Positions 33,290 through 63,885 of a DNA stretch of 64,000 nt are shown here, piece after piece (position 1 is the first letter of the stretch; the number at the start of each line of letters is the position of its first letter). This DNA is from Ralstonia sp. SET104 (lineage in GTDB: Bacteria > Pseudomonadota > Gammaproteobacteria > Burkholderiales > Burkholderiaceae). The notes below the pieces were generated by a model, which ran no database searches, was not told the DNA's origin, and saw only the letters and a program-made list of their open reading frames with translations. Where the stretch lies: the NCBI RefSeq assembly GCF_003851545.1, contig NZ_BHVX01000010.1:1-64000 (forward strand), in the 5' to 3' direction. The translations under genes and the position numbers were made by a program.

Positions 33290-33330
33290 AGCGTAGACAG
33301 CGTAGCGCCCAGGCTGTTGATGCGTGTCAA
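33290..33330 (-). promoter_or_regulatory. FNR-type promoter of the first Usp gene
   Basis: Minus strand: box TTGACACGCATCAA (33317-33330, one mismatch to TTGAT-N4-ATCAA) and -10 TACGCT (33290-33295), centres 31 bp apart. Confidence 0.75.
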
Positions 33331-34337
33331 ATGTCTTCCGAAGACACCCGCAGAACGGCAGCGCCGGCCACCCGCCCGGCGCGGAGGTCTTCCAACGCGG
33401 TGTTGGCGTTTTGCAATCGATAGGGTGTGACGTGAACCTGCAAGGGGATTTTCGCCGCGAGGCGCATGAGCGCGAGTCCATCAGCTCGCGTCAGGTTTGC
33501 GACGGAGACAAGCTTGCGCTCTTCCCATAGCAACCGGTACGGAAACGCCGGGATGTCACTCATGTGAATGCCGCCGCAAACGACCGTGCCACCTTTGACC
33601 ACGGCCTGCAGCGCTTGCGGTACGAGCGCGCCGATCGGTGCGAAGATCAGCGCGGCGTCGAGCGGTTCCGGTGCGGGGGTGCCGCTGGCGCCTGCCCACC
33701 TGGCACCGGTGTCCAGCGCAAGTTGCTGAGCTGCAGTGTCGCCGGCCCGGGTGAAGGCAAAGACTTCGCGTTGCTCCGCCACGGCAATCTGCGTGATGAG
33801 ATGGGCTGCGGCGCCAAAGCCGTAGATGCCAATCCGGCGCACATCTCCGGCCATGCGCAGCGTGCGGTAGCCGATCAGGCCGGCGCAGAGCAGCGGAGCA
33901 GCATGGGCATCGTCGTACCGCTCGGGAATCGGCAGGCAATACCGCGCGTCGCAGACGACATACTGCGCATACCCGCCATCGCGCGTATATCCGGTGAAGG
34001 CGGGGTGGTCGCACAGGTTTTCGTGGCCGTGCATGCAGTACGGGCAGACTCCGCATGTCCAGCCGAGCCACGGCACGCCGACGCGCTCGCCTGGGGCAGG
34101 CGTCGTCACGCCTTCGCCGCACGATTCGACGATGCCGACGATTTCGTGACCGGGAATGAGGGAGGGCTTCGGGGTGGTCAGTTCGCCGTCCACGATATGG
34201 AGATCGGTGCGGCAGACGCCACACACAGACACAGCGATCCGGACTTCTCCCGGCCCGGGTGTGGGCATCGGCACACGGCGCCAGACCAATGGTTTTCTTG
34301 CTTCTTCCATCACCATGGCCTGCATTGGTTCAGACAT
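33327..34337 (-). CDS. Zinc-dependent alcohol dehydrogenase (AdhA-like)
   Basis: 336 residues of the medium-chain dehydrogenase family. Catalytic-zinc residues are in VCGVCRTDLH and GHEIVG, the structural zinc in CGVCPYCMHGHENLC, and the coenzyme motif is degenerate as GIYGFGAAAHL. It resembles the propanol-preferring AdhA class, which in Pseudomonas is under ANR control during oxygen limitation. It probably reduces aldehydes or oxidises ethanol for redox balance. The stop codon overlaps the promoter of the downstream Usp gene. Confidence 0.9.
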   Translation of the reverse strand: MSEPMQAMVMEEARKPLVWRRVPMPTPGPGEVRIAVSVCGVCRTDLHIVDGELTTPKPSLIPGHEIVGIVESCGEGVTTPAPGERVGVPWLGWTCGVCPYCMHGHENLCDHPAFTGYTRDGGYAQYVVCDARYCLPIPERYDDAHAAPLLCAGLIGYRTLRMAGDVRRIGIYGFGAAAHLITQIAVAEQREVFAFTRAGDTAAQQLALDTGARWAGASGTPAPEPLDAALIFAPIGALVPQALQAVVKGGTVVCGGIHMSDIPAFPYRLLWEERKLVSVANLTRADGLALMRLAAKIPLQVHVTPYRLQNANTALEDLRAGRVAGAAVLRVSSEDI

Positions 34338-34414
34338 GGCCGTCTCCGAGTGTGGCGCGTCTGTCCAGTATGGATGGGGCGCGCGGGGCTGTCGCTCTTG
34401 CGCTCGACCATCGA

Positions 34415-34455
34415 CTGCGCCAGATCAATCGGAAAGCGTTGCCGCGCGCGATACT
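34415..34455 (+). promoter_or_regulatory. FNR-type promoter of the MgtC/DUF4010 gene
   Basis: Box CTGCGCCAGATCAA (34415-34428; one half-site perfect) and GATACT (34450-34455), 31 bp centre to centre, 38 bp before the start codon. Confidence 0.5.
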
Positions 34456-34492
34456 GAATAAACGCAACGCAACTGCCATCCGTATCCACTGA

Positions 34493-35725
34493 ATGTCTTC
34501 ACTGCTGTCTTTCTCGGTTGCCTTGGGCGTGGGGCTGGCGATTGGCCTTGAGCGCGAGCGTAGTCACGCCGCCAGTACAGAGCTGCCGGCAGGCATGCGA
34601 ACGTTTGCGATTGGCGCACTGGCTGGTGCCATTGCGGCGAGCTTGCCGATACCGTTTTCTGTGCCAACCGTCTTGCTGACGGTCTCGGTGTTGGCGGCCC
34701 TGGGGTATCACCATTCAGCCAATGTTGACCCTGGTGTGACAACGGAACTTGCGCTGGTTGTGACGACGCTATTGGGCGCCTATGCCGTGAGTGAACCTGA
34801 GATGGCGGCCGGTCTTGGCACAGTCCTGCTCGTCCTGCTCTACGCCAAAGCGGGCTTGCACCGGTTCGCACGCTCTGTCATTACTCAGCGTGAACTTGCC
34901 GACCTGCTGATCCTTGCCGTGGCGGCATTGCTGATCTGGCCTGCGGTTCCGGATCGAGCCATGGGGCCATTGAACGCCTGGAATCTGCATACGCTCTGGC
35001 TGGTTGCGCTGCTGGTCATGCTGACCGGCAACGCAGGCCATTTTGCGACGCGATGGTTTGGAGAACGTATCGGCTTGCCGCTTGCGGGCCTGTTCAGCGG
35101 GTTTGCATCGAGTGTGGCAACAATCACGGCCATGGCCGCGCGCGTCCGAAAAGATCATCGCCGCGTTGACGGTGCGGTTGCCGCAGCGCTGCTGTCCAAC
35201 GTTGCCACGCTGGTGCAGATGCTGCTGCTGATTGCCGCCATCAACATCGACTTGCTGCGCGTGCTGGCTGGTCCGCTGGCGGCGGGCATGATAGCGATCG
35301 TGGCATGGTCTGCTCCATGGATATGGCGCGGCAGTGAGCCGCTTCAGGGGCAGGAGGCGCCTGAGAGCTCGGCGTCATCCATCAACTGGCGCGTTGCGAT
35401 CGGTTTTGCGCTATGGACGGCGGCGTTGCTGCTTGCCGCAGCCGCCGCGCGCGCATCGTTCGGGACAGCAGCGGTGGTGGCCGTCACCGTGTTTGGTGCG
35501 TTTGCCGATGTGCATGCCGCGACCGCATCCATTGCGACGCAGGTTGCTGTCCACACGCTGCAGACCTCGACGGCAGGTGCGCTGGCGATGCTTGCGCTGA
35601 CAGCCAACACGTTCTCGAAGGTTGTTGTGGCCATCAGCGGAGGCCGTGCTTTTGCCGGCAAGGTGACTGCCGGTCTGCTGACCATGCTCCTGTCTAGCTG
35701 GGCAGTGTTCTGGTTTGTCGCCTAG
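34493..35725 (+). CDS. MgtC/SapB-DUF4010 membrane protein
   Basis: 410 residues with about 12 hydrophobic segments. The N-terminal 150 residues are MgtC/SapB-like (LGVGLAIGLERERS and PAGMRTFAIGALAGA), and the rest is DUF4010 (NAGHFATRWFGERIGLPLAGLFSGFASSVATITAMA). MgtC-type proteins are linked to growth at low Mg2+ and to control of ATP synthase; the DUF4010 part is uncharacterised. The gene ends one base from the convergent DUF2892 gene. Confidence 0.87.
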   Translation: MSSLLSFSVALGVGLAIGLERERSHAASTELPAGMRTFAIGALAGAIAASLPIPFSVPTVLLTVSVLAALGYHHSANVDPGVTTELALVVTTLLGAYAVSEPEMAAGLGTVLLVLLYAKAGLHRFARSVITQRELADLLILAVAALLIWPAVPDRAMGPLNAWNLHTLWLVALLVMLTGNAGHFATRWFGERIGLPLAGLFSGFASSVATITAMAARVRKDHRRVDGAVAAALLSNVATLVQMLLLIAAINIDLLRVLAGPLAAGMIAIVAWSAPWIWRGSEPLQGQEAPESSASSINWRVAIGFALWTAALLLAAAAARASFGTAAVVAVTVFGAFADVHAATASIATQVAVHTLQTSTAGALAMLALTANTFSKVVVAISGGRAFAGKVTAGLLTMLLSSWAVFWFVA

Positions 35726-35908
35726 TCAATCACGCCCAATGCCCAGCACCCAATAGAGCGGACACATGCGGATCAGGCCCGTCACCAGCGGTATCAGCCC
35801 CAGCCAGCCCACCCATGCAGGTACCTTGCCAAAAAACGCCAGCAGGATCATGACGATGCCGATCAAGATGCGGACGACGCGATCCGCGGTTCCGACATTG
35901 GGAAACAT
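35726..35908 (-). CDS. DUF2892 inner-membrane protein
   Basis: 60 residues: MFPNVGTADRVVRI, then two hydrophobic helices separated by GKVPAWVG, ending PLYWVLGI. This is the DUF2892 pattern (as in YgaP's membrane part) including the conserved Cys in RMCPLY. It lies 33 bp after the CBS gene on the same strand, so probably in one transcript. Function unknown. Confidence 0.85.
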   Translation of the reverse strand: MFPNVGTADRVVRILIGIVMILLAFFGKVPAWVGWLGLIPLVTGLIRMCPLYWVLGIGRD

Positions 35909-35941
35909 GGCAATTCTCCTGAGGAATGGCTGGGTGATGGC

Positions 35942-36409: not shown

Positions 36410-36436
36410 GCTGAACTCCGATGCGCGTACGTTTTC

Positions 36437-36477
36437 ACTATAAGAACGGGCCGGTGTCAGAAGTTGATCCCGCACAA
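36437..36477 (-). promoter_or_regulatory. FNR-type promoter of the CBS gene
   Basis: Minus strand: box TTGTGCGGGATCAA (36464-36477) and a strong -10 TATAGT (36437-36442), 31 bp apart, giving a short leader before the ATG at 36409. Confidence 0.72.
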
Positions 36478-36555
36478 GGTGCCGTGAGCTTTCCAAGACT
36501 GCGCCAAAAGGGCAGCGGATAGCGGACGAGTCTATCGAGCACTCGGCTTAAGCCA

Positions 36556-36643
36556 TTGAGGCAGATCAAGTGGCGTTGCGCGGGGGGGCTGTGAGCCAAA
36601 CGCTGATGTAAATCAAGGGGTGATCCGCCTGGTGGTCCAACAT
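36556..36643 (+). promoter_or_regulatory. Tandem FNR boxes before the usp-bon operon
   Basis: TTGAGGCAGATCAA (36556-36569) and CTGATGTAAATCAA (36603-36616), each one mismatch from consensus, 47 bp apart. The nearer box is 31 bp from CAACAT (36638-36643). The layout suggests class II activation with an additional upstream FNR dimer. Confidence 0.8.
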
Positions 36644-36695
36644 GGAATTTAGCGAGCCCGCTTGGGGCAGATCACGGATTCGATGGAGGCACATC

Positions 36696-40514: not shown

Positions 40515-41315
40515 TCAAAGCTCCGTCAGTGCCGCCTTGTCAGTCAGTTCGATGTTCTTGCCGCTCACGACGATCCAGCCTTCGCGGTGGAACTTCGACA
40601 GCGCACGGCTGACAGTCTCAAGCTGCATGCCAAGGTAGCTGCCAATTTCTTCGCGGGTCATGCGCAGCGTGAAACTCGAAGCGGAGTAACCGCGGTCCTG
40701 CATGCGCGTAGAGAGGTTCAGCAGGAAGGTCGCAACACGCGCTTCCGCGCTCAGCCCCGCAAGCAGCAGCATGAGTCCTGACTCGCGCACGATCTCTTCG
40801 GCCATCAGTTGGTGAAGGCGATGTTGCAGTGGGCGGATGTCCTGGCACAGGTCTTCAATGCAATGGAAGGGCATAGAGCAGACGGTACTGTCTTCCAGGG
40901 CAATTGCATCGCAAGTGTGACGGTCGGCGGCAATGCCGTCGAGGCCAAGCGTTTCGCCCGACAACTGGAAGCCGCTGACGTGGCTTGCGCCGTTGGGATG
41001 CGACACCACAGTCTTGAACGAGCCTGAGCGGACGGCATACAGCGCATGGAAGCTATCGCCGGCGCGAAAGAGGGCTTCGCCTTTGGCGATCTTGCGCCAG
41101 GTGTGAACCATTCTGTCCAGGCTATCTCGTTGCGCGGAGGGCACGGCGCTCGCGATGCACGCCCATTGCATCACGCAACTGCTGCACTGGCTGTTGGGAA
41201 CCAGCGGCGTTGTCAGATGGGCCTGCGTTGCATCGCGCACAAGCCTGAGCGGGGCAAGCGTGGCAGGACGGCGGGTGTCGACGGGTGCTTGGTGCTCTGC
41301 AGTATGCGGGATCAT
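40515..41315 (-). CDS. fnr: FNR-type oxygen-sensing regulator
   Basis: 266 residues from the ATG at 41315 (GGAG 9 bp upstream); an ATG at 41399 is possible. All four [4Fe-4S] ligands of FNR are present: C44-x2-C47-x5-C53 and C146 in STVCSMPF. The recognition helix LETVSRALSKF keeps the E-x2-S-R set (E233, S236, R237) that reads TTGAT. It therefore should activate TTGAT-N4-ATCAA promoters when oxygen is low, and such boxes surround it on both sides. It is convergent with the usp-bon operon. Confidence 0.93.
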   Translation of the reverse strand: MIPHTAEHQAPVDTRRPATLAPLRLVRDATQAHLTTPLVPNSQCSSCVMQWACIASAVPSAQRDSLDRMVHTWRKIAKGEALFRAGDSFHALYAVRSGSFKTVVSHPNGASHVSGFQLSGETLGLDGIAADRHTCDAIALEDSTVCSMPFHCIEDLCQDIRPLQHRLHQLMAEEIVRESGLMLLLAGLSAEARVATFLLNLSTRMQDRGYSASSFTLRMTREEIGSYLGMQLETVSRALSKFHREGWIVVSGKNIELTDKAALTEL

Positions 41316-41567: not shown

Positions 41568-42956
41568 ATGGACTATGTTGTCTGCATCCCGACCTTTTGG
41601 CGGCGTTCGGTGGCGGATCAAGACAGTCAATCCTCGAAGGCAACGCGCAGGCGCCTGTTGCAGTTGCAATCCAGCTCAGCAGAACTCGTGGTTGGGGTGC
41701 TGGCGATCCTGCTGCTGGCAGCGTCCGTCATGCGGTTGGCGCTGGCACTTCAGGCCAGAGACGCCGCGTTTATTTTTCTAGCCTCGGCAAGTATCGCTGC
41801 GATCCTGGCGCTGGTGTTCTACTGGCTCCGGCTCAGGAAGCTACGCGCCGCCGTGGCACGTGATCTGACCCACCTGGAGAAGAGCGAAGCGCGGCTGGCC
41901 GGCATCATCCGCTCGTCCATGGAAGCGATCATTTCGGTGGATGAAACGCAACGCATCGTGCTGTTCAACCCCATGGCCGAAACACTGTTCGGATGCCCGG
42001 CCCGTCATGCCATCGGCCGCCGGCTGTCTGACTTCATTCCCGAGCGCTTTCGCGGCGCGCACGAGGCGCACGTGCGGCGCTTTGGGGTGACGGGGGTATC
42101 GGAGCGCCAAATGGGCAAGCAACGTCCGCTATTTGCCTTGCATACGGACGGGCGAGAGTTCCCGATCGAGGCGTCGATTTCCCAGATCGAAGTGAACGGC
42201 GGCAAGCTTTTCACCGTGATGCTGCGGGACACCACAGAGCGTGTCCGCGCAGAAACGGCGCTGCGGCGCTCGCAAGAGGAGTTGCAGCATCTGTCGGACA
42301 GCATTCTGGCCACGCGGGAAGAGGAGCGGCATCGTATTGCACGCGAGCTGCACGATGATCTGGGCCAGCGTCTGAGCGCGCTCAAGATGGATATCTCGTT
42401 GCTGGCGGGCGATCTCCAGGCTGCAGGGAGCGACAAAGGTTTGATTGACCAGACCCGGGCGATGCAGCATGTCATCGACGAAACGATTGCAGCCGTGCGG
42501 CAGATCTCCGCAGACCTTCGGCCGCCGCTGCTTGACGAGCTGGGCCTTGTGCCGTCCATTGAGTGGATGGCCAAGAATTTTCGTCAGCGCTTTGGCTTGG
42601 TGGTCAACGTGCATGCGCAAGAGATGTCGATGCCGGAGCACGCCGCAATCTCGGTCTTTCGGATCGTGCAGGAGGCGCTCAACAATGTCGTGCGCCATGC
42701 AGATGCCACCCGTGTGGAAATCGAGTTTTCGCAACAGGACGACATGCTCGAATTGTTCATTCAGGACAATGGACACGGCTGGAGCGGGGCGCCTCCGGCA
42801 GCGGGCGAACGCAAGCCGCTGGGGTTGCTTGGTATCCGCGAGCGGGCTCGGCTCCTGGGTGGGCAAGCGACGATCACACACACACCGGAGGGCGGCTTTC
42901 GCCTGGCCGTGCGCTTTCCCGCCGTTCATGAAACTGACGCGGAGGCCAGGATATGA
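41568..42956 (+). CDS. PAS-domain sensor histidine kinase (HisKA_3)
   Basis: 462 residues. Two membrane helices (about 40-62 and 67-87), a PAS domain at about 108-225, the dimerisation helix with phospho-acceptor H262 in ARELHDDLGQRLS (HisKA_3, the NarX/DegS class), and an HATPase domain ending LGLLGIRERARLLGG. The PAS F-helix ERFRGAHEAHVRRFGVTG carries H165 and H168 where FixL has its heme-ligand region, so oxygen or redox sensing is possible. It overlaps the response regulator by 4 bp and is divergent from fnr. Confidence 0.9.
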   Translation: MDYVVCIPTFWRRSVADQDSQSSKATRRRLLQLQSSSAELVVGVLAILLLAASVMRLALALQARDAAFIFLASASIAAILALVFYWLRLRKLRAAVARDLTHLEKSEARLAGIIRSSMEAIISVDETQRIVLFNPMAETLFGCPARHAIGRRLSDFIPERFRGAHEAHVRRFGVTGVSERQMGKQRPLFALHTDGREFPIEASISQIEVNGGKLFTVMLRDTTERVRAETALRRSQEELQHLSDSILATREEERHRIARELHDDLGQRLSALKMDISLLAGDLQAAGSDKGLIDQTRAMQHVIDETIAAVRQISADLRPPLLDELGLVPSIEWMAKNFRQRFGLVVNVHAQEMSMPEHAAISVFRIVQEALNNVVRHADATRVEIEFSQQDDMLELFIQDNGHGWSGAPPAAGERKPLGLLGIRERARLLGGQATITHTPEGGFRLAVRFPAVHETDAEARI

Positions 42957-43600
42957 TCCGCGTAATGATTGCCGACGATCACGCTGTGATGCGCGATGGC
43001 GTGCGTCATATTCTGGAGCGCGCCGGGGATTTCGAGGTCGCATGCGAAGCCTCGGATGGTACGCAGGTCCTGCAACTGGTGCGTGACCATCAACCCCAGG
43101 TGATCGTGCTCGACCTCTCGCTGCCCGGACGCAGCGGACTGGAGCTGCTGCGGCAACTGCACGATGATCACCCGAGAGTGCGCGTGCTGGTGCTGACCAT
43201 GCACGCTGAAGAACAGTACGTGGCGCGCGCCTTCCGTGCGGGCGCGGCCGCTTATCTGACCAAGGAGAGCGCCGCAACTGAACTGGTCACCGCTCTGCAG
43301 AAGGTGGCCATGGGCGGCACGTATGTCAGTCCGCCCATGGCGGAGAAGCTTGCACACAGCCTGGGCGAGCCCAGCGAGGAAGCTGCGCACACCCGATTGT
43401 CCGACCGCGAGATGGAGGTCTATCGCCGGCTGGTGCGTGGCGAGCCGCAAACCGACATCGCCGCCAGCCTGTGCGTAAGCGCAAAGACCATCAGCACCTA
43501 CAAGATGCGGCTGATGGACAAGCTGAGGCTCTCCAGCGAAGCCGCGCTCGTGCGTTACGCCATACGTCATCGTTTGTTTTCTGACGACGATACGCTGTAG
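42953..43600 (+). CDS. NarL/FixJ-family response regulator
   Basis: 215 residues. The receiver domain has the acidic pair D8-D9, the phospho-acceptor D54 (VLDLSLPG) and K103 region (AAYLTKESA). The C-terminal LuxR-type helix-turn-helix is LSDREMEVYRRLVRGEPQTDIAASLCVSAKTISTYKMRLMDKL. The start overlaps the kinase stop in ATGA, so the two are co-translated partners. Targets are unknown. Confidence 0.93.
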   Translation: MIRVMIADDHAVMRDGVRHILERAGDFEVACEASDGTQVLQLVRDHQPQVIVLDLSLPGRSGLELLRQLHDDHPRVRVLVLTMHAEEQYVARAFRAGAAAYLTKESAATELVTALQKVAMGGTYVSPPMAEKLAHSLGEPSEEAAHTRLSDREMEVYRRLVRGEPQTDIAASLCVSAKTISTYKMRLMDKLRLSSEAALVRYAIRHRLFSDDDTL

Positions 43601-44084
43601 CGCGCAGGCCGAAGCCGGTGCCATGGCACATGCCAGCGAGTTAAGTCTCGCTGTGCAATTGGCGGAGCACGCACGGCAACCCCCCCCAGGTGACGACGAC
43701 CGTTGCGTTGCATCAAGCCCTGACGCGCGTCCTGCGCTCTAATGATTTGCACATCCGGGTGCTTTGCCCGCAATTTCCCATGCACACCATGCCAACGCCG
43801 TCTCAATCTGCTGCAGTCAAGATCGGCTTGCCTCCATACGTGCCCATGGCGTGGGTGTCGATGCAGCCGGTATCGCCTCAGAATGTTCAGGGAAAGCGTG
43901 TTGTGGTGGCGCACGCAGCGGTGCCGAATATGCTGCGCAGTGCGTTGATTGCCGCGTTGCCCGGCCATCGCCAAGCAGCTCGAATACCTGGGCGGCGCCA
44001 TCGGTGCCGGGATCGTGCCGCCGCGCCGCGCCGATCTGTGCGCTTCGCGGTTCGCCATACGGCCTGCGCGCCAGGAGGCTACTG
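43601..44084. other. 484-bp region before mgtA: FNR promoter and long leader
   Basis: No convincing gene; several short frames overlap without ribosome sites or recognisable products. The probable mgtA promoter is at 43703-43743, which would leave a transcribed leader of about 330 nt before the AGGAGG site at 44070-44080. Long leaders sense Mg2+ in enterobacterial mgtA, but I cannot show structure here. Confidence 0.5.
43703..43743 (+). promoter_or_regulatory. FNR-type promoter of mgtA
   Basis: Box TTGCGTTGCATCAA (43703-43716, two mismatches) and -10 TCTAAT (43738-43743, five of six), 31 bp centre to centre. Confidence 0.6.
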
Positions 44085-48604: not shown

Positions 48605-49090
48605 TCAGGCGGCCTGCTCAGCTCTTGCCTTTGCGGGGCGTGCCGGTCCGTTCTTCTTCGCCTCGGAGTCTGGCAGAGCCATGAGGTTGAAACTGTCAAA
48701 GAAGGCCTTCAGCGAATCGGAAGAGGCGGCAAACAGTTGGGAGGACGATTGCCCTTCCGGTTGTTGCATCTGCTGAGTCCATTCCGTCAACCGGCGCAAA
48801 TAGGCGGCCTGGAGCTTGTTCGTAAAGTCGATCCATGTCTGCAGCGCCGCGGCGCCGTGGGTCGATTGCATTTTCATAAAGATGCTTTGTGCGGTGGCCA
48901 GCGATGTCCAGTCATGCGTGCCGCTCAGTTCATGTTCCAGCTCGCGCACATCTTCCAGCGCAGCCTCGGCCAGCTTGAGGCGGAATTGGGCCAGGTCGAT
49001 TTGCACCTCGAGCATGAAGCTGGCGGTGCGGCTCATATCGCGCATGGCGGCGCATGCCAGGTTGCATGCCATATCAGCGGGTTGTTGCAT
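48605..49090 (-). CDS. Phasin-family protein
   Basis: 161 residues from the ATG at 49090 after GGAGATCACA. Mostly amphipathic helix with the phasin_2 pattern (FRLKLAEAALEDVRELEHELSG, then SIFMKMQSTHGAAALQTWIDFTNKLQAAYLRRLTEW). Phasins coat polyhydroxybutyrate granules and control their number. A paralogue is at 60367-60855, and an acetoacetyl-CoA reductase lies between them. Confidence 0.87.
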   Translation of the reverse strand: MQQPADMACNLACAAMRDMSRTASFMLEVQIDLAQFRLKLAEAALEDVRELEHELSGTHDWTSLATAQSIFMKMQSTHGAAALQTWIDFTNKLQAAYLRRLTEWTQQMQQPEGQSSSQLFAASSDSLKAFFDSFNLMALPDSEAKKNGPARPAKARAEQAA

Positions 49091-49154: not shown

Positions 49155-49195
49155 AGCGTAGGCACTCTGCAAGTGTGTGCGTTGATATGGCGCAA
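49155..49195 (-). promoter_or_regulatory. FNR-type promoter of the phasin-CBS operon
   Basis: Box at 49182-49195 (plus strand TTGATATGGCGCAA, one half perfect) and minus-strand -10 TACGCT (49155-49160), 31 bp apart. Confidence 0.6.
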
Positions 49196-50856: not shown

Positions 50857-50924
50857 AATATCGCGCGGTTGCTGCCATGCGCCCTGACGTAGATCAACGT
50901 CCGCGCAGGGTGGTTGCCTAGCAT
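50857..50924. promoter_or_regulatory. FNR-type site between divergent kinase and dehydrogenase
   Basis: Box CTGACGTAGATCAA at 50884-50897. On the plus strand TAGCAT (50919-50924) and on the minus strand GATATT (50857-50862) both lie 31 bp from its centre, so it may serve both genes. Confidence 0.6.
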
Positions 50925-54353: not shown

Positions 54354-54394
54354 ATTTTTGATCGCACGATTTCCGGCACCTTGACTCGGATCAA
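54354..54394 (-). promoter_or_regulatory. FNR-type promoter of hpf
   Basis: Box at 54381-54394 (plus TTGACTCGGATCAA, one mismatch) and minus-strand AAAAAT (54354-54359), 31 bp apart. Confidence 0.7.
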
Positions 54395-54626: not shown

Positions 54627-54667
54627 TTGCGCGAGATCAACCCGGCAAACGCGCGCCGCCGTATCGT
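54627..54667 (+). promoter_or_regulatory. FNR-type promoter of the rhomboid-NamZ operon
   Basis: Box TTGCGCGAGATCAA (54627-54640, two mismatches) and -10 TATCGT (54662-54667), 31 bp apart, 24 bp before the rhomboid start. Confidence 0.6.
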
Positions 54668-56137: not shown

Positions 56138-57392
56138 CCGCTTGTGCCTGTGGCTTGCAGCGGTGTGGCTCTCTTGCGCGCAGTTTGCGGGCGCGGCCGA
56201 GATCAGGGTGGTCGACGCACAGACTCACCTTCCTGTGGAAGGCGCTTTCACATTCGTTCAGGGCGAGAGCGGAACGACCGATGCTGCCGGCCTGGTCGCC
56301 ATTCCGGCATCGGCGGTGGATGCACGCGCGGTGGTCAGCGTCCGCGCGCCTGGCTATGCACGTGCCGAGCTGGTGCTTGGCGGCCCGCAGCCCGCAGTCG
56401 GGATATCGCTCAAGCCGATCAGGCCGAAGGCGGTTTATCTGTCGGTACAGGGCGTATCCAACCGATCCTTGCGCGATGCGGCTGTCGCCCTTCAGGGCGA
56501 GACGGCCATCAATGCGCTGGTGATCGACATGAAGGGCGACCGGGGAGATACACCTTATCCGAGTGCAGCCCGTGTGACAGCGGGCGCGGCCCCCGAACAG
56601 AACAACGGTGTGGCCCGGATCAACCAGTTCGCCGCCGTGATTCGGCAACTCCGTCTACGTGGCCTGTATCTGATTGCGCGCATCGTCGTCTTCAAGGACG
56701 ACCGCTTGGCCCGGGCGCATCCCGAATGGGCCGTGCGAGACCGCGATGGAGAGGTCTGGCGCGATCGTGAAGACCAACAATGGATCGACCCCGGTGTGCA
56801 GGCCGCCTGGGCCAGCACGCTTGACGTGGCGGAAGAGGCTGCAAGACTCGGGTTTGATGAGATCCAGTTCGACTATCTTCGTTTTCCGGACGCCAATGGC
56901 TTGCAGTTTCACCAAGCCAACACGCAAGCACACCGGGTTGCGGCCGTTACGGGTTTTCTTGCGCGGGCCAGAGAGCGGCTGCGGCCGTACAACATTTACC
57001 TGGCGGCGGACATTTTCGGCTACGTTTGCTGGAACACCGACGACACAGCGATCGGCCAGCAGATCAACACACTGGGCGCTGTGGTCGACTACATCTCGCC
57101 CATGCTCTATCCATCTGGCTTCACGTGGGGCTTGCCCGGCAGCAGAAACCCCACCGAAAAGCCTGGCGAGATCGTCTCGCGTTCCCTGGCGGAAGCGAAG
57201 CGCCGCACAGGTTTGCCGGGCGTGAGGTTCCGGCCATGGCTGCAGGCGTTCCGGGACTATGCTTTTGATCGTCGTGAGTTCAATGCCGAGATGATTCGCG
57301 CCCAAGTCGACGCTGCCGATGCGGAAGGTACCAACGGGTGGATGCTATGGAACGCGCGCAATCGTTACGACCCAGCCAATTTGCCGCGATAG
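56130..57392 (+). CDS. Exported DUF4015-type putative glycoside hydrolase
   Basis: 420 residues from the ATG at 56130. Signal peptide LCLWLAAVWLSCAQFAGA. An N-terminal carboxypeptidase-regulatory-like beta domain (about 20-95) is followed by the DUF4015 barrel (RPKAVYLSVQGVSN, INALVIDMKGDRG, FDEIQFDYLRFPDAN, VDYISPMLYPSGFTWG). Acidic residues in DYLRFPD and ADIFGY sit where barrel glycosidases have their catalytic pair. The family is uncharacterised. It overlaps both flanking genes. Confidence 0.85.
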   Translation: MSSRLCLWLAAVWLSCAQFAGAAEIRVVDAQTHLPVEGAFTFVQGESGTTDAAGLVAIPASAVDARAVVSVRAPGYARAELVLGGPQPAVGISLKPIRPKAVYLSVQGVSNRSLRDAAVALQGETAINALVIDMKGDRGDTPYPSAARVTAGAAPEQNNGVARINQFAAVIRQLRLRGLYLIARIVVFKDDRLARAHPEWAVRDRDGEVWRDREDQQWIDPGVQAAWASTLDVAEEAARLGFDEIQFDYLRFPDANGLQFHQANTQAHRVAAVTGFLARARERLRPYNIYLAADIFGYVCWNTDDTAIGQQINTLGAVVDYISPMLYPSGFTWGLPGSRNPTEKPGEIVSRSLAEAKRRTGLPGVRFRPWLQAFRDYAFDRREFNAEMIRAQVDAADAEGTNGWMLWNARNRYDPANLPR

Positions 57393-59740
57393 TCGCGGTA
57401 CTGGCGGTGGTGCTGCTGGCCTGCACGCAGACCCTGCGCGCCGAGCCCGCCGCCACCGGCCTTGGGCCGCTGGGCACGCCTGTGCCCATGCGCGAACTGG
57501 AAGCCGTGGTGGCGGCGCAGATTGCCGATGCCAATGTGCCCGGGGCGGTCGTGGCGATCGGTGATGCCAGCGGGTTGCGCGAACGCGTCGCGCTGGGCGA
57601 GCGATCTGTTGGACTCGCCGCTGAGCCGATGACCGAAGACACCATCTTCGATCTGGCATCGCTCACCAAGGCAGTGGCCACTGCCACGGCGGTATTGCAG
57701 TTGGCAGAGCGAGGACGTTTGGAGTTGGATGCACCTGCCAGCCGTTACTGGCCCGCCTTCGCAGACGGAGGCAAGGCGCGCATCACAATACGGCAGTTGC
57801 TCATTCACACATCCGGTTTGCCTCCCGGCCTGGCCGCCCGAGCGGAACTCCGGAGTCGCGCCACGGTGCTTCACGCGATCGGGATCATGCCGCCGATTGC
57901 GGAGCCGGGGCTCCGTGTCATCTACAGTGATCTCAACTATGTTGTGCTGGGCGAGATCGTCCAGCGTGTCAGCGGGATCGGGCTGGACGCATGGTGTGCG
58001 CAGCAGATCTTTCGACCGCTTGGCATGCGCGACACCGCATTCCGTCCGAGCCACAAAGCGATCACCCGCATCGCGCCAACCATCATTCGCAACGGACGAT
58101 GGCTTCGCGGCAAAGTGCATGATCCGACGGCCGCTGCACTGGGTGGTGTCTCCGGCAACGCGGGCCTGTTCTCCACGGCGGATGACCTCGCGCAGTTCGC
58201 CAGGATGCTCCTCAACGGGGGCCGCTTCGAGGGGCGCCGTATCCTGCAACCGGACAGCGTTGCCCTGCTGTTGACGCCAGACGCCTCGACTGCAGTGGAG
58301 GCAACACGCACGCTGGGATGGGAAGTCCAGGCGCCGTTGACGCCCAACCGCTATCGCGCGCCGCGCGCGGGGCTCCTCCAGCACCTGGGCTATACCGGCA
58401 CCGGCTTATGGATCGACTTGGTAACGCGCAGATTCGTGATTGTGCTCACAAGCCGGCTGTATCCGGACGAGCAGGGTAACGCCATGCCGTTGCGTGAAGC
58501 CGTGCTGAATCTGGTGTCGAGCACCGCGCCGCCGCTCTCCGGCGAGCAGATCGCAGTGCGCGCCCCCACCATGGCCGATGCGGTGAACAGTGCCGGACGC
58601 CGCTTACCCATGGCGGTCGGCCCCGTGCGATCAGGTATCGATGTATTGGAGGCCAGCGGCTTCGCACCGCTTGCCGGAAAGCGGGTCGGCTTGGTCACGA
58701 ACCACAGTGGCCTGGATGCGCAGGGGCGGCGCACCATCGACGTACTCAGTCAGGCGCCGGGCGTGCGGTTGACGGCGATCTTTGCACCGGAGCATGGCAT
58801 CGGTACGGATCTCGACGCGCGCTTTGGCGACACGATCGACACACGCACCAACGTGGTCGTCCATAGCCTGTATGGCAACAGCAAAGACATACCACGCAGC
58901 GCGCTGGCCGATATCGACGTTCTGGTGTTTGACCTCCAGGACGCCGGCGTACGCTTCTTTACCTACCTTGCCACCCTGGGGGCGACGCTGGAAGCCGCAG
59001 CTAAGGCCCACATCCCGGTGCTGGTGCTGGACCGTCCCAATCCGATACGCGGTGATCTCGTTGGTGGGCCGGTATCCGATACGGCTGACCGCTCATTGAC
59101 AAACTATGTGCCTCTGCCGCTTGTGCACGGCATGACGATCGGCGAGCTTGCCAGATTGCTGAATGATCAGTTGCACATCGGCGCAGCGCTGCATGTCGTG
59201 GCCATGGAGCAGTACGACCGCGCAATGCGCTTTGCCAATACCGGGCTGGGTTGGGTTCCGCCATCACCAAACCTGCGCGATTTTGCTGCCTTGGAGCGGT
59301 ATCCGGATGTGGGGTTGATCGAGGGCGCAAGTGTCAGCGTGGGCAGGGGCACGTCGGCGCCGTTCGGCATGGTGGGAGCACCGTGGATGGACGGCACAGC
59401 GGTAGCGGAAGCACTCAATGCCCTGGATACCGGCGCCACCTATACACCCGTCCATTTCGTTCCAGCGGAGGGGCCATACCATGGCCGCTCGTGCTCGGGT
59501 GTGGCGATCCACCGGACGTCAGCGCTGACGCGCCCGGGCCGCATCGGTTTGGCGCTGGCCCGGGTACTGTCGCAACGCTATCCGGAGCATTTCAAGTTGG
59601 AGGCGATCCGCACGTCCGTTGCGTCGGAGACGGTCTGGGCGATGCTGCGTGATGGCGTTTCGCTAGACGCGATCGAGCATGCCTACAGCGCACAGACCGA
59701 TGCCTTTCTCTCGCAGCGAGCGCCCTATTTGCTCTATTGA
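57338..59740 (+). CDS. Lipoprotein fusion: serine beta-lactamase-like (AmpH/YbbE) plus NamZ muramidase (DUF1343)
   Basis: 800 residues. N-terminal lipobox LLAC (C29). Residues about 50-420 form a class C beta-lactamase-type hydrolase with S108-x-x-K111 (SLTK) and the LIHTSGLPPGL motif. Residues about 435-800 are DUF1343, the exo-beta-N-acetylmuramidase NamZ fold (GLVTNHSGLD, FAPEHGI, VFDLQDAGVRFFTYL, RPNPI, GASVSVGRGTSAPF). In Bacillus subtilis the separate ybbE and ybbC (namZ) genes are neighbours in a muropeptide recovery cluster, so the fusion supports a joint cell-wall role. It overlaps the DUF4015 gene by 55 bp. Confidence 0.9.
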   Translation: MDAMERAQSLRPSQFAAIVAVLAVVLLACTQTLRAEPAATGLGPLGTPVPMRELEAVVAAQIADANVPGAVVAIGDASGLRERVALGERSVGLAAEPMTEDTIFDLASLTKAVATATAVLQLAERGRLELDAPASRYWPAFADGGKARITIRQLLIHTSGLPPGLAARAELRSRATVLHAIGIMPPIAEPGLRVIYSDLNYVVLGEIVQRVSGIGLDAWCAQQIFRPLGMRDTAFRPSHKAITRIAPTIIRNGRWLRGKVHDPTAAALGGVSGNAGLFSTADDLAQFARMLLNGGRFEGRRILQPDSVALLLTPDASTAVEATRTLGWEVQAPLTPNRYRAPRAGLLQHLGYTGTGLWIDLVTRRFVIVLTSRLYPDEQGNAMPLREAVLNLVSSTAPPLSGEQIAVRAPTMADAVNSAGRRLPMAVGPVRSGIDVLEASGFAPLAGKRVGLVTNHSGLDAQGRRTIDVLSQAPGVRLTAIFAPEHGIGTDLDARFGDTIDTRTNVVVHSLYGNSKDIPRSALADIDVLVFDLQDAGVRFFTYLATLGATLEAAAKAHIPVLVLDRPNPIRGDLVGGPVSDTADRSLTNYVPLPLVHGMTIGELARLLNDQLHIGAALHVVAMEQYDRAMRFANTGLGWVPPSPNLRDFAALERYPDVGLIEGASVSVGRGTSAPFGMVGAPWMDGTAVAEALNALDTGATYTPVHFVPAEGPYHGRSCSGVAIHRTSALTRPGRIGLALARVLSQRYPEHFKLEAIRTSVASETVWAMLRDGVSLDAIEHAYSAQTDAFLSQRAPYLLY

Positions 59741-59792: not shown

Positions 59793-60119
59793 CTACTTCA
59801 TCTGATTGCCGCCATCCGTGTATGGGTCACGTTTGCCCTTTGCGCCTTCTGTGTACGGGTCAAACTTGCCGCGCCTCGACCCTTCTGTGTACGGGTCACG
59901 TTTGCCCTTTGCACCCTCTGTGTACGGATCAAACTTGCCGCGTCTTGATCCCTCTGTGTACGGGTCGCGTTTGGCTTGTTTAGCGCCGTCCGTGTAGGGG
60001 TCCACCTTGCGGGCCGCCTGTCCTTCGCCGTTCTGTGCCGCGTCGGGCTTACTCTGTGCGTACGCTGCAGTGGAAGCCGCTGCGACCACGAGCAGAGTCA
60101 TCATGAGTTTTCTGCGCAT
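59793..60119 (-). CDS. Small secreted DPYT(E/D)G-repeat protein
   Basis: 108 residues from the ATG at 60119 (MRRKLMMTLLVV); signal peptide cleaved after AYA. The mature part is six copies of a KxDPYT(E/D)G motif separated by short basic linkers (SRRGK, AKGK). It is highly charged, lacks hydrophobic residues and should be disordered. I recall similar repeat proteins in Burkholderiales, all hypothetical. No catalytic site is seen. It is convergent with the NamZ fusion gene. Confidence 0.75.
   Translation of the reverse strand: MRRKLMMTLLVVAAASTAAYAQSKPDAAQNGEGQAARKVDPYTDGAKQAKRDPYTEGSRRGKFDPYTEGAKGKRDPYTEGSRRGKFDPYTEGAKGKRDPYTDGGNQMK
59824..59961. repeat. 69-bp tandem repeat in the DPYTEG gene
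   Basis: Two full 69-bp units (59824-59892 and 59893-59961) plus a partial third, few differences by eye, mostly synonymous. Each encodes two motif copies (23 codons). Confidence 0.9.
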
Positions 60120-60287
60120 TTTGTGCTCCTGCAAACAAATCAAATCCAACCGCTGGATCAAAAACCTGTTCTATCCACCACGTGCTTGCCCGATGGCTAT
60201 TTCAAGAATAGGCAGCTGCTAGAGACCCTCGTTGACAGGAATCAAGCGGCTTTCTTTCGTCGATGCCATGCATGGCACATGGTTTTC

Positions 60288-60322: not shown

Positions 60323-60366
60323 GGCTTTTGTTTTGGCCGCCGTATTCCCATTCGCCCGGACAGCCG

Positions 60367-60855
60367 TCAGGCGCCTTGCGCGCTCTTGGGCGTTGTTTGC
60401 GGCTGCGACAGCGATCGGGTTTGCGTAGCCGATGCGGCTATCACGTTGAAGGTGTTGACCAACGTCTGCCAGGCGTCGAGGGACGCGGTCAACAGTTGTG
60501 CGGCAGGCGCAGCCGCCCCGGGCCGATGTTGGAACGGGGTGCTCCACTCTGTCGCCTGGCGCAGATAAGACTGCTGTGCGTCATTGAGAAGGTCGCCCCA
60601 CTGGCGGGCAGCGTTTGCGCCCAGGCTGGCTTGCAGCTCCATGTATGCGCTCTGCGCCGAGGCCAGTGCGTTCCAGTCTTTGATGGCATCCAACTGGTCT
60701 TCCAGTTGGCGCAGATTCTCTAGCGCGGTTTCTGCCATCTTGACGCGAAGGCGCGCGAGCTGAAGCTGGCTACCGACGAAGAACTCGGCTGCGCGGCTGG
60801 CGTCGCGCATGGTGGCTCGGGCAAGGTTACAGACTGCATCAGTAGGCTGCGGCAT
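60367..60855 (-). CDS. Phasin-family protein (second copy)
   Basis: 162 residues from the ATG at 60855 with CGGAGATCGTG upstream. Same architecture as the phasin at 48605-49090: N-terminal CNLARATMRDASRAAEFFVGSQLQLARLRVKMAETALENLRQLEDQL and a helical C-half with AARQWGDLLNDAQQSYLRQATEW. An FNR-type promoter is just upstream. Confidence 0.87.
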   Translation of the reverse strand: MPQPTDAVCNLARATMRDASRAAEFFVGSQLQLARLRVKMAETALENLRQLEDQLDAIKDWNALASAQSAYMELQASLGANAARQWGDLLNDAQQSYLRQATEWSTPFQHRPGAAAPAAQLLTASLDAWQTLVNTFNVIAASATQTRSLSQPQTTPKSAQGA

Positions 60856-60880
60856 CACGATCTCCGGTTGATAAGACTGC

Positions 60881-60921
60881 AGGGTAGGCACTTCGCCGTG
60901 GCCGGAATTGACCTGACGCAA
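60881..60921 (-). promoter_or_regulatory. FNR-type promoter of the second phasin
   Basis: Box at 60908-60921 (plus TTGACCTGACGCAA) and minus-strand -10 TACCCT (60881-60886), 31 bp apart. Confidence 0.55.
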
Positions 60922-61049
60922 GTCTCTGGATCGGCTTGCCGTATGCCCCTGACAGGACGGTTTTCCTGAGGCGATTGGCTGCCTGAGCCCCCCCAGAAAA
61001 AACTTCGGATGGCAGTGTCCGGCATCGGATCTGCTGGGCAGACCGGCGC

Positions 61050-61433
61050 CTAATCCAGATCCCACGCTGGATAGTCCGACAGAACGTCAGCCCGCGAGCG
61101 GCATGCGAGCAGCGGGTCGTCCGGTCCAATCCAGGCCGCGCGCACGTTCGCGCAGACGTCACGAAACCGCGCAGTGCTGATGCCCATGCGATTGGCTGCC
61201 GTTGCCCAGTGTGTAAAGACTTTTGAATGAACAGCCAGATACCTCTGGCGCATGTCTGGTTCTCGCGGAAACATGCCATCGGCGGGAGAAAAATCGGGGC
61301 ACCTCAAGTAGAGGTTGAACCAGAAGAGCGCCGCATACGCCCGGAGAATCTCTTCCACTGACTCTGGACACGCCGGATTGAAGGCGACATGGGGGCACGG
61401 GCAATCGGTCTCACAGAAATATGTCGTACGCAT
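61050..61433 (-). CDS. Uncharacterised protein with N-terminal cysteine cluster
   Basis: 127 residues. The N-terminus holds CETDCPCPH and a further Cys in FNPACPE, suggesting a metal site. The middle is helical (VEEILRAYAALFWFNLYLRCPDF, KVFTHWATAANRMG). I do not recognise the family. It lies 15 bp after the BON-like gene on the same strand, so it is probably in the same FNR-controlled operon. Confidence 0.6.
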   Translation of the reverse strand: MRTTYFCETDCPCPHVAFNPACPESVEEILRAYAALFWFNLYLRCPDFSPADGMFPREPDMRQRYLAVHSKVFTHWATAANRMGISTARFRDVCANVRAAWIGPDDPLLACRSRADVLSDYPAWDLD

Positions 61434-61448
61434 GTTCGCGCGCCCCGG

Positions 61449-61826
61449 TTATCCGACGTGCTGAGGGTGCGTGGCGACGGAATACGCGCGCAGCGGATTG
61501 GCGATGGCGTCCACCGTCACCGTCATCTCCAGCCCACCAACGCCAGGCAAGCGGAGCAGGGCCATCTTCAGGTAGGTCAGTGGGCGGGCATTGCAGACGT
61601 GGCCAGTCATGCGAATGCGTCCATGCTCAGCGCTGATATGGATTTCGTTTGCCAACGTCGGGGCAAACCAGTTGGCGGCCGTCTTTGCCAAGACGGCAAG
61701 CGCCGGATCAGGGAGCAGACAGGCATTGGCATCCGGAAGAAATACCGTTGCCAGCGCATCTTCGTTGATGTGCCGAACGGGTGCCGCTTTCGCGAGCTGA
61801 TGATGGATGGCTGCGGGAGCGATCAT
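61449..61826 (-). CDS. BON-like small protein
   Basis: 125 residues. Residues about 40-110 fit one BON module (ALAVLAKTAANWFAPTLANEIHISAEHGRIRMTGHVCNARPLTYLKMALLRLPGVGGLEM). The N-terminal part is unassigned and there is no signal peptide. It is the first gene of a two-gene operon behind an FNR-type promoter. Confidence 0.68.
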   Translation of the reverse strand: MIAPAAIHHQLAKAAPVRHINEDALATVFLPDANACLLPDPALAVLAKTAANWFAPTLANEIHISAEHGRIRMTGHVCNARPLTYLKMALLRLPGVGGLEMTVTVDAIANPLRAYSVATHPQHVG

Positions 61827-61859
61827 GGCGAAGGCGGCGTGTCAAAGTGTCTTGCCACC

Positions 61860-61900
61860 ACTGTAGGAGACTGCCTGGAAGCGCACTTGATCGTAAGCAA
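61860..61900 (-). promoter_or_regulatory. FNR-type promoter of the BON-like gene
   Basis: Box at 61887-61900 (plus TTGATCGTAAGCAA, one half perfect) and minus-strand -10 TACAGT (61860-61865), 31 bp apart. Confidence 0.6.
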
Positions 61901-62072
61901 AGCTTGATGATCAGGGTGCAGTGCTGGCAGAACCGAAGTCGAGCGATGGTTCCTGTATCAAGCCGGGCGTTTCTGTGCATGCACCCGCTCGCCTGTTCGA
62001 GACAGCCCGTGCAAACGCATCGGTGGACACGGCCGGCGCCGGGTGTGCTTGACGTAAGCAGGTATTGCGTTG

Positions 62073-62113
62073 TTGAGGCAGGTCAACGCGCGCGACGCAG
62101 TGCCCAATAGGCT
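62073..62113 (+). promoter_or_regulatory. FNR-type promoter of the PfkB gene
   Basis: Box TTGAGGCAGGTCAA (62073-62086) and -10 TAGGCT (62108-62113), 31 bp apart. The box differs by one base from that at 36556. Confidence 0.6.
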
Positions 62114-62243
62114 AATAGATCAGTTCGCTTTGATGCGGCTTCGCTGTTGAGCCTGGGTTGATTTCCCTAAGAGGGCGACGGGATCGAAACGCGGATGTGC
62201 AGCATGACCACCGGCTGCCCTCCGCAGCTTCTTGAGGTGTGCA

Positions 62244-63176
62244 ATGCCGGAAATTGTCACGCTTACGGTCAATCCCGCAATCGACATCGCCACGTCGGTG
62301 GAGCGCTTGACGGATACCCACAAGATGCGCTGCACCCCGGCGCGCTGTGACCCCGGAGGCGGCGGAATCAACGTTGCCCGCGTTGTTCATCGCCTGGGTG
62401 GGGATTGCCTGGCCATTTACCTTGCCGGCGGCCCGGTGGCCGAGCGATTGGGGCGTCTTCTGTCGGCAGAGGGCTTATCGTTCGTCGCCCTCGGGATCGA
62501 AGGGCAGACGCGCGAGAATTTTTCCGTGACGGAACTGTGCAGCCACCGCGAGTTCCGGTTCGTGATGCCGGGGCCGGCCGTCTCGGAAGCGGAATGGCAG
62601 CGCTGCCTGGAGTATCTGGATGCGCTGCAACCTGCGCCGCGCTACCTCGTGCTAAGCGGAAGCCTGCCGCTCGGGGTGGCCGACGATTTCTACGCGCGCG
62701 CCATTGACAGGGCCAAGGTTCATGGCAGCCGCGTCGTACTGGATGCCTCGGGTCCGGCATTGCGCATGGCATTGCCGCATGCGCCATACCTGATCAAGCC
62801 CAGCCTGAACGAGCTCCGACAACTCACAGGGCGCGCGTTGGAGACGGAAGCGGATTGCAGGCAAGCTGCTCGAGAGATTGTCCGCAATGGGCACGCGCAT
62901 GCCGTCGCGCTCACGCTGGGCGCAGGCGGGGCCATGCTCGTCACGCAAAAAGATGTTGTCCGCTCACGTGCGGTCGCAACGTCATGCCTGAGCACCATTG
63001 GGGCGGGTGACAGCTTCGTGGGCGCAATGGTGTGGGCGCTTAACCGGAATGCCGGGATACACGAGGCATTTCGATACGGCATGGCCGCCGCTGCAGCAGC
63101 GTTGGGCCATGCCGGTACTGAACTTGGCAGCGCCGCCGAGATCGAGCAGCGCTATGCAGAGGTCTCCGTGTCTTGA
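62244..63176 (+). CDS. PfkB-family sugar kinase (phosphofructokinase type)
   Basis: 310 residues from the ATG at 62244; ATG 62232 is an alternative. Signature 1 PGGGGINVARV (37-47) and signature 2 with catalytic D256 in TIGAGDSFVGAM. The TVNPAIDIATSVERL opening is typical of 1-phosphofructokinase, 6-phosphofructokinase II and tagatose-6-phosphate kinase. A second glycolytic kinase would help fermentation in Ralstonia-like organisms that lack PfkA. The substrate is inferred only. Confidence 0.88.
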   Translation: MPEIVTLTVNPAIDIATSVERLTDTHKMRCTPARCDPGGGGINVARVVHRLGGDCLAIYLAGGPVAERLGRLLSAEGLSFVALGIEGQTRENFSVTELCSHREFRFVMPGPAVSEAEWQRCLEYLDALQPAPRYLVLSGSLPLGVADDFYARAIDRAKVHGSRVVLDASGPALRMALPHAPYLIKPSLNELRQLTGRALETEADCRQAAREIVRNGHAHAVALTLGAGGAMLVTQKDVVRSRAVATSCLSTIGAGDSFVGAMVWALNRNAGIHEAFRYGMAAAAAALGHAGTELGSAAEIEQRYAEVSVS

Positions 63177-63266
63177 GGCGCGCCTGCCTGAGCTTGATGG
63201 ATCGGGGCAAGCCGCCGCTTGGCTTGCAAGGGCGGCTGGTGGCGTTACGGAGCGTCCCTCCTGATG

Positions 63267-63767
63267 CTACCGGCTCCATTTCACGTGCAGTTCGGTTTCT
63301 GCGTTGCCATAGTCAAACGTCAGGTGCCCGTGGAATGCATGGTGGATTGCGTGGCCGATGTCGCGCGCCAGATGAAAACCGGTCGTCAGGATGTCCGTGC
63401 CGCTGCTCGTGCATTCGACAGCCATGATGCGTTCCATCGGATGATCCAGGCGCAGATCTGCCTCGCGGTGGCGAGCGAGCGTCAGGATCTCTTCCCGATG
63501 GGCCGCCTCAAAGTCCCCCGACAGGTGGATTCGGGCTGCCGGCATCTGGTCGGCGGCACGCTGGCATGCCGAGCAGATCAATGAAGTTGCCCCCGGTGGT
63601 GGACTGCGCCACAACCAGCGGCCCTTGAGGTAAACGGCACCGCAAACCGGGCAACAGCTTGCGGCCGGTGCCTTGTCGGGTTGCCGATACCGGTTGTGGA
63701 TCGGCTCAACGGCAAATGGGCTCCAGCGTGCCGGCCGCACTCGTTCGGATTGAGAGCGTTGTTTCAT
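63267..63767 (-). CDS. BCAM0308-family zinc-ribbon protein
   Basis: 166 residues from the ATG at 63767 after AGGAGTCAAT. A zinc ribbon is formed by CCPVCGAVYLKGRW and LICSACQRA. The C-terminal half (HREEILTLARHREADLRLDHPMERIM, then GTDILTTGFHLARDIGHAIHHAFHGHL) is compact alpha/beta. I associate this with the BCAM0308 family from the B. cenocepacia low-oxygen locus; function unknown. An FNR-type promoter is upstream. Confidence 0.75.
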   Translation of the reverse strand: MKQRSQSERVRPARWSPFAVEPIHNRYRQPDKAPAASCCPVCGAVYLKGRWLWRSPPPGATSLICSACQRAADQMPAARIHLSGDFEAAHREEILTLARHREADLRLDHPMERIMAVECTSSGTDILTTGFHLARDIGHAIHHAFHGHLTFDYGNAETELHVKWSR

Positions 63768-63844
63768 ATTGACTCCTGTGAGGGCGAATTCCTCCGGCCT
63801 GCTGCAGAGCAGAATCTGCAACACGGTGGCGGTGGACAATTCTC

Positions 63845-63885
63845 AGAGTACTTCCCGCCGCGCGACGCAATTTGGGCTGAGTCAA
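63845..63885 (-). promoter_or_regulatory. FNR-type promoter of the BCAM0308-like gene
   Basis: Minus strand: box TTGACTCAGCCCAA (63872-63885, about three mismatches) and -10 TACTCT (63845-63850), 31 bp apart. The weakest box of the set. Confidence 0.45.

Follow-up and report, generated by a model that had tools for sequence, protein, structure and literature searches.

The window analysed here, a stretch of 64,000 nt from Ralstonia sp. SET104, carries in its second half a block of about 31 kb (positions 33201-64000) composed of DUF4010, universal stress protein (Usp), CBS, hpf, rhomboid, pfkB and other stress or persistence genes. Gene starts in this block are preceded by a 14-mer resembling the FNR box TTGAT-N4-ATCAA and by a TAnnnT-like -10 hexamer whose centre lies 31 bp from that of the box, and this fixed distance is a real feature of the block, far above chance. 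Judging from the DNA, the block carries at least eleven, probably fourteen, such FNR-type promoters, and it is very probably a Ralstonia lxa-type hypoxia-persistence locus, in which class II promoters would place the units under the positive control of an FNR-type [4Fe-4S] regulator. An earlier note on the window had named 13 start regions with this arrangement, and all 13 were located with the two centres exactly 31 bp apart. The hexamer is a full TAnnnT in nine of them (usp1, CBS1, 'phasin1', adh2, rhomboid, 'phasin2', the gene at 61449-61826, pfkB and the BCAM0308-like gene) and deviates before DUF4010 (GATACT), usp2 (CAACAT), mgtA (TCTAAT) and hpf (AAAAAT). Two strict sites come in addition to the 13, namely a second, tandem site of CBS1 and one at 60205-60245, which brings the sites attributed to gene starts in the block to eleven strict ones (with full TAnnnT) and four weaker ones.

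To score the boxes, we counted the mismatches of each 14-mer to TTGATN4ATCAA, and phasing was assessed by requiring TAnnnT at every box-hexamer centre distance from 20 to 45 bp (31 bp from centre to centre places the hexamer start at box start + 35). The window contains 37 boxes with at most two mismatches (74 strand readings), against 15.5 expected by chance, and TAnnnT stands at 31 bp in nine of the 74 readings, compared with five at the remaining 25 distances combined. With up to three mismatches allowed, the 31-bp distance is found in 13 of 384 readings, and any other distance in no more than three. The interval 33201-64000 holds nine phased sites at the first threshold and 11 at the second, compared with means of 0.03 (maximum 1) and 0.36 (maximum 2), respectively, in 300 dinucleotide shuffles of the same interval, while bases 1-33200 give none and two. 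The earlier note had admitted that several boxes are weak on their own and had held the fixed spacing to be unlikely by chance; both statements stand, two or three mismatches being often seen in the window. Across the 4.8-Mb genome, the relaxed composite TTGN7TCAA-N21-TAnnnT has 13 matches, nine of them inside the block, and the reversed pattern used as control has none, whereas a spacer of N22 gives five matches (control five) and one of N20 gives two (control three). Among the four composite matches outside the block, one lies inside a long frame (C15), two precede plausible genes, and the fourth is near a frame that we take to encode a single-strand binding protein. The array was not seen to continue past the window end in C10:64000-81999, and the next stretch beyond C10:81999 holds one phased box (C10:83788). 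A perfect FNR palindrome occurs 3.5 kb past the window, at G000:C10:67509-67522, between an FtsH-like gene and an open reading frame (ORF), with no TAnnnT at 27-35 bp.

Comparison with relatives supports conservation of the class II FNR-type geometry in Ralstonia, Cupriavidus and Paraburkholderia as well as in Burkholderia-type loci. A search with the DUF4010 protein retrieved 13 loci, nine in Ralstonia or other Burkholderiaceae (including R. pickettii) at 73-91% identity and four at 29-31%, and the dual-Usp protein has a counterpart of at least 66% identity in 14 of the 15 other Ralstonia genomes, the exception (G001) being a fragmented assembly. We assembled 17 comparison loci from eight of the 15 Ralstonia genomes, three other genomes and six named plasmid records (Cupriavidus metallidurans p1, Cupriavidus sp. 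KK10, C. oxalaticus, Burkholderia pyrrocinia, Paraburkholderia phymatum and P. caribensis); blocks of this type thus occur on large replicons and in plasmid records, two of the six latter being typed mobilizable. Pooled, these loci hold 102 sites at 31 bp (54 in Ralstonia, 48 outside), eight at 32 bp and at most five at any other distance, and several of the boxes outside Ralstonia are perfect TTGATN4ATCAA. The six named records, for which Usp or FNR matches were the only selection criterion, contribute 30 sites at 31 bp, four at 32 bp and at most three elsewhere; a tally without G017 and G026 gives 85 sites at 31 bp and at most five at any other distance. When orthologous starts are considered, 79 of 254 upstream regions have a match at 31 bp with at most two mismatches (the window itself contributes 10 of these matches and 27 of these regions), compared with 3-21 at 12 other distances. 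In six Ralstonia promoter families, the mean identity is 0.96 and 0.99 in the half-sites, 0.88 in the box centre and 0.98 in the -10 hexamer, as against 0.64 in the spacer (of constant length) and 0.55 and 0.66 in the flanks, although the box and -10 values are inflated by the choice of families from sites already at 31 bp; for the rhomboid family, one of two candidate sites in G003 was used.

A class II FNR promoter requires a fixed distance between box and -10 hexamer, and the promoters of the block have their box in the -35 position. No good -35 hexamer is present: the best TTGACA match at a spacer of 16-18 reaches three of six positions in one of the 11 strict sites and one or two of six in the other ten, so the promoters should need an activator. 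The observed features (the box, its fixed distance, the missing -35 hexamer, the conservation and the encoded FNR-like protein) are consistent with a mechanism in which an FNR-type [4Fe-4S] dimer would become active at low oxygen, would bind the TTGAT-N4-ATCAA-like box standing in for a -35 element, and would recruit RNA polymerase to the TAnnnT hexamer centred 31 bp downstream. In this mechanism, FNR binding, activation and the role of oxygen as the signal are predictions.

The nearest published counterpart is the lxa locus of Burkholderia cenocepacia J2315, reportedly first described by Sass et al. in 2013. That locus encodes Usp proteins, an FNR protein and the BCAM0308 protein (PMC9104464, PMC9733578, PMC4505428), and an FNR box-like motif has been reported at many low-oxygen-induced genes (PMC4505428). 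The Ralstonia block likewise encodes a member of the BCAM0308 family, a marker of the lxa locus (63267-63767, minus strand; 151.6 bits with NF040826 lxa_BCAM0308, cut-off 100), together with an FNR-type regulator and several Usp (Pfam matches in three block proteins). This marker, the regulator and the promoter geometry, taken with the published lxa locus with its FNR and the FNR box-like motif, make the lxa-type reading the best one. As judged from published descriptions of J2315, the likeness lies in the Usp, FNR and BCAM0308-family proteins and in FNR box-like motifs at low-oxygen genes; the two differ in genus and, as far as compared, in gene content, and low-oxygen induction was measured in J2315 and is predicted here.

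Several points weigh against this reading. The boxes of the window are often two or three mismatches away from the consensus, and the FNR-type protein of the block, with 205.4 bits, stays below the cut-off of 228 of the NCBIfam Fnr model (NF008365), which is still its best model in the library. Three of the comparison loci (G017, G026 and G015) showed composite clusters before they were chosen, the remaining ones were selected by Usp or FNR matches, which favours such blocks, and the eight Ralstonia loci among the 17, with their orthologous sites, do not count as independent. Some orthologues have no 31-bp site, for example BCAM0308 in G026 (37% identity, the sole BCAM0308-like orthologue tested elsewhere) and pfkB in G005, and the loci of G024 and B. 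pyrrocinia hold one 31-bp site each. The idea that 31 bp is private to the block had to be rejected, 44 of the 71 strict 31-bp sites of 16 Ralstonia genomes lying outside it (the block limits in these genus-wide tallies are our own choice, placed from the Usp position).

The regulator encoded in the middle of the block (40515-41315, minus strand) has the characters of FNR, as the earlier note had proposed. Its N-terminal CX2CX5C motif and a later, central cysteine are present in 19 of 19 aligned rows, its closest solved structures are those of FNR (E 5e-49), and its recognition helix, ETVSR, fits the pattern E-x2-SR, the residues of which are stated to read DNA in E. coli FNR (PMC4505428). It was found in all 17 comparison loci, though some of these were picked by FNR matches. 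In the genome, ten matches to the CRP-type helix-turn-helix (HTH) domain exceed the family cut-off and 12 stay below it; among the ten, two have an E-x2-SR helix, both with Fe-S cysteines. The second of these proteins, encoded at G000:C2:246671 next to cbb3 oxidase genes (ccoNOP, ccoG), has the same cysteine spacing and the same ETVSR helix, so that the protein at 40515-41315 is not singled out as the activator.

It is therefore conceivable, though on balance rather unlikely, that the second FNR is the main reader of the phased boxes and that the FNR of the block has another job. Besides the cysteines and helix common to both, this possibility is favoured by B. cenocepacia H111, a strain without lxa, in which a pair of anr copies may have redundant functions in anoxic survival (PMC9104464). 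It is disfavoured by the presence of the block's own FNR in the comparison loci and by a contrast in spacing. Two cbb3 promoters near the second FNR gene (L110 492-533 and 3296-3337, in G000:C2), standing before a metal-transporting ATPase gene (ccoI-like) and ccoN, have a box-to-(-10) distance of 32 bp, and 14 of 16 Ralstonia genomes have a similar pair at 32 bp, its members some 2.8 kb apart, for which site similarity and spacing suggest that the same cbb3 genes follow. Among strict boxes in these genomes, the block holds 27 of the 71 sites at 31 bp and one of the 56 at 32 bp, this single one coming from a box that, read in the opposite direction, is already among the 31-bp sites. Thus 31 bp is almost the sole distance inside the block, whereas both distances are in use elsewhere in the genome. 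As an absolute rule for cbb3 promoters, 32 bp was not upheld: one of the pair is at 31 bp in G011, and G013 has no such pair.

The half-sites of the phased boxes are not equivalent in Ralstonia. The 60 phased sites of the genus (those of the window included) have 70 mismatches in the left half and 17 in the right, that is, the upstream half departs more from TTGAT, while unphased boxes have 236 and 292; no such imbalance is seen in the other three groups (9 versus 9, 12 versus 14 and 6 versus 4). TTGCG or CTGCG halves precede four genes with conserved sites (48605-49090, 60367-60855, rhomboid and DUF4010), and these upstream halves are conserved in Ralstonia, not decayed. Hybrid half-sites of Fnr1 and Fnr3 have been described in Herbaspirillum (PMC5934665), and heterodimers are one possible reading of the asymmetry. 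A doubtful extension of our scheme, which we regard as improbable, would have the block read by oriented FNR heterodimers on hybrid TTGCG + ATCAA sites, or by a paralogue-specific geometry in which the distance (31 bp in the block, mostly 32 bp at cbb3 promoters) sorts promoters between the two FNRs. Counting against it, the sites are largely orthologous and one cbb3-type site of G011 is at 31 bp. The asymmetry is only a lead because the left excess is not significant in the window itself (10 of 14 untied sites, sign p 0.18) and the genus-wide count is not independent.

DNR and FixK proteins read nearly the same sequence as FNR. Another member of the CRP/FNR superfamily, such as a DNR-like nitric-oxide sensor or a FixK-type protein, could in principle read the boxes for this reason; we consider it quite unlikely, given that the E-x2-SR helix is confined, among the ten above-cut-off HTH proteins, to the two with Fe-S cysteines. 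Slightly less probable still is direct activation by the response regulator of the FixL-like pair encoded in the block, with the boxes being incidental: the PAS domain of the kinase does resemble the heme-binding one of FixL, but the conserved element identified is an FNR-type palindrome, and reading of TTGAT-N4-ATCAA is not known from response regulators of that class. Duplication of a copied or mobile promoter unit, without selection on regulation, would account for its recurrence before unrelated genes, but this can be rejected with near certainty, as the sequences around the 11 strict sites are about random with respect to each other (mean identity 0.27 upstream, 0.32 in the spacer and 0.26 downstream; random 60-mers, 0.26). 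Chance matches picked by eye, an explanation invited by the weakness of single boxes and by the number of boxes that arise at random, are dismissed just as firmly by the shuffled controls, by the low counts at distances other than 31 bp and in bases 1-33200, by the reversed pattern in the whole genome and by the tallies in the comparison loci.

The lxa-type locus with class II FNR promoters, which remains our preferred interpretation, is of a kind already known, as are its FNR box and class II geometry. As far as limited literature searches show, the newer details are the exact distance conserved throughout the block, the contrast between 31 and 32 bp, and the frequent, conserved TTGCG upstream half in Ralstonia. 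The DosR dormancy regulon of Mycobacterium tuberculosis has a regulator and a binding site different from the FNR type, and the Ralstonia block is no member of it. The likeness is functional at most and lies in hypoxia genes rich in universal stress proteins, for which DosR and lxa are compared in PMC6127331. The E. coli class II promoter (FF at -41.5; pFF-41.5 in PMC4505428) shares with our sites an FNR box that occupies the -35 position and is followed by a -10 hexamer, whereas the Ralstonia block, as read from its sequence, has many weaker, asymmetric boxes and a single distance block-wide. Herbaspirillum seropedicae, according to PMC5934665, resembles Ralstonia in having several Fnr paralogues (Fnr1 and Fnr3 among them) in one betaproteobacterium, an fnr1 box at -42 and hybrid half-sites at Group III promoters, including those of two uspA genes; unlike its regulons, the Ralstonia sites are dominated by one block, and heterodimers are a lead only here. 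The 31-bp geometry was not mentioned in the partial texts on FNR, lxa, and Ralstonia, Cupriavidus or cbb3 covered by our limited search, which does not establish its absence from print. Read in this manner, a list of stress genes becomes one testable unit, a persistence block under a shared promoter rule, and the rule provides a simple sequence route to the members of the block. Likewise, 31 bp versus mostly 32 bp in cells with two FNRs makes testable why such bacteria keep several FNRs, an open question posed in PMC5934665.

The individual promoters of the putative lxa-type locus begin with that of usp1 (33290-33330, minus; ATG 33246; TTGACACGCATCAA ... TACGCT), the orthologues of which have an upstream phased site with at most one mismatch in all eight other Ralstonia loci. 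The weaker DUF4010 promoter follows (34415-34455, plus; ATG 34493; CTGCGCCAGATCAA ... GATACT); an unchanged box and the hexamer xATACT are found in all seven other Ralstonia loci, of the eight, in which the gene was found. CBS1 has a distal promoter (36529-36569, minus; ATG 36409; TTGATCTGCCTCAA ... TAGACT), kept in seven of the eight, and, 92 bp downstream, a proximal one (36437-36477, minus; TTGTGCGGGATCAA ... TATAGT), kept in all eight; the complete tandem pair (36437-36569) is present in seven. The weaker usp2 promoter (36603-36643, plus; ATG 36696; CTGATGTAAATCAA ... CAACAT, its first base not T) has box and hexamer unchanged in seven of the eight. Since they are kept in the relatives, the weaker sites of DUF4010 and usp2 look real. 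The doubtful candidate before mgtA (43703-43743, plus; TTGCGTTGCATCAA ... TCTAAT), the weakest of the sites claimed, has no counterpart in the relatives' loci compared, and membership of the gene is not supported. At the place where mgtA is expected, four Ralstonia relatives have a TTGCG-type phased box before an apparently different gene (L082 5925, L076 4532, L080 4451 and L070 7170, all minus).

Further along stand the promoters of the 48605-49090 gene, 'phasin1' (49155-49195, minus; TTGCGCCATATCAA ... TACGCT), and of adh2 (50884-50924, plus; ATG 50953; CTGACGTAGATCAA ... TAGCAT). The divergent kinase promoter suggested beside the latter (50857-50897, GATATT) is the adh2 palindrome read in reverse, and its conservation is thus no proof of a second promoter. 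The weaker hpf promoter (54354-54394, minus; ATG 54306; TTGATCCGAGTCAA ... AAAAAT) corresponds in five other Ralstonia loci tested to a best phased site with one -10 mismatch (four loci) or two (one locus). The rest are the promoters of rhomboid (54627-54667, plus; ATG 54691; TTGCGCGAGATCAA ... TATCGT), of the small ORF 59793-60119 (60205-60245, minus; TTGATTCCTGTCAA ... TATTCT), of the 60367-60855 gene, 'phasin2' (60881-60921, minus; TTGCGTCAGGTCAA ... TACCCT; three mismatches), of the 61449-61826 gene (61860-61900, minus; TTGCTTACGATCAA ... TACAGT), of pfkB (62073-62113, plus; ATG 62244; TTGAGGCAGGTCAA ... TAGGCT) and of the BCAM0308-like gene (63845-63885, minus; ATG 63767; TTGACTCAGCCCAA ... 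TACTCT; three mismatches). A sigma-S-like -10 (C at -13 in 62 and C at -8 in 54 of the 102 pooled sites) was considered and dropped, since these counts alone do not tell it from the ordinary -10 boxes of a G+C-rich genome.

The usp2 promoter may lead an operon of genes for dual Usp, BON, flavodoxin-like, DksA-type zinc finger and BON proteins, that of adh2 one with nitroreductase and SDR genes, and that of rhomboid one with deacetylase, glycoside hydrolase and NamZ genes; most genes of the block would thereby come under phased promoters. In the window, the 260 bp ahead of the FNR gene, the kinase gene and the dehydrogenase gene at 33327-34337 hold no 31-bp site with at most two mismatches in all, and none was found ahead of the FNR and sensor kinase genes in the testable comparison loci either. 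The block is thus not wholly under one promoter kind, and of the earlier suggestion that nearly all of it forms one oxygen-controlled regulon, what stands is that class II FNR-type promoters lead most units, with mgtA and the two regulatory genes set apart.

The PAS domain of the sensor histidine kinase (41568-42956, plus) can be aligned with the heme PAS in FixL structures, with a histidine opposite the FixL histidine that we take to be the heme ligand; the NCBIfam FixL model scores 70 against a cut-off of 850. The partner response regulator of the kinase (42953-43600, plus) combines a receiver with a LuxR-type HTH. The names 'phasin1', 'phasin2' and, for the 61449-61826 gene, BON-like could not be confirmed: neither Pfam nor NCBIfam yields a match to these proteins or to the small ORF in the ranges tested (for 48605-49090 and 60367-60855, no NCBIfam match in that range and no Pfam match in the longer frames tested). 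The 60367-60855 gene matches the relatives' loci of the 48605-49090 gene at about 40-44% identity. After the polysaccharide deacetylase and DUF4015 glycoside-hydrolase genes, and seemingly downstream of the rhomboid promoter, stands a gene (57338-59740, plus) for an 800-aa protein in which a beta-lactamase-family domain is fused to NamZ (exo-beta-N-acetylmuramidase) N and C domains. On C. metallidurans p1, a plasmid typed mobilizable, a compact module (L061 12388-22445) brings together Usp, PAS kinase, regulator, FNR-like, dehydrogenase and BON genes and adjoins metal-efflux genes.

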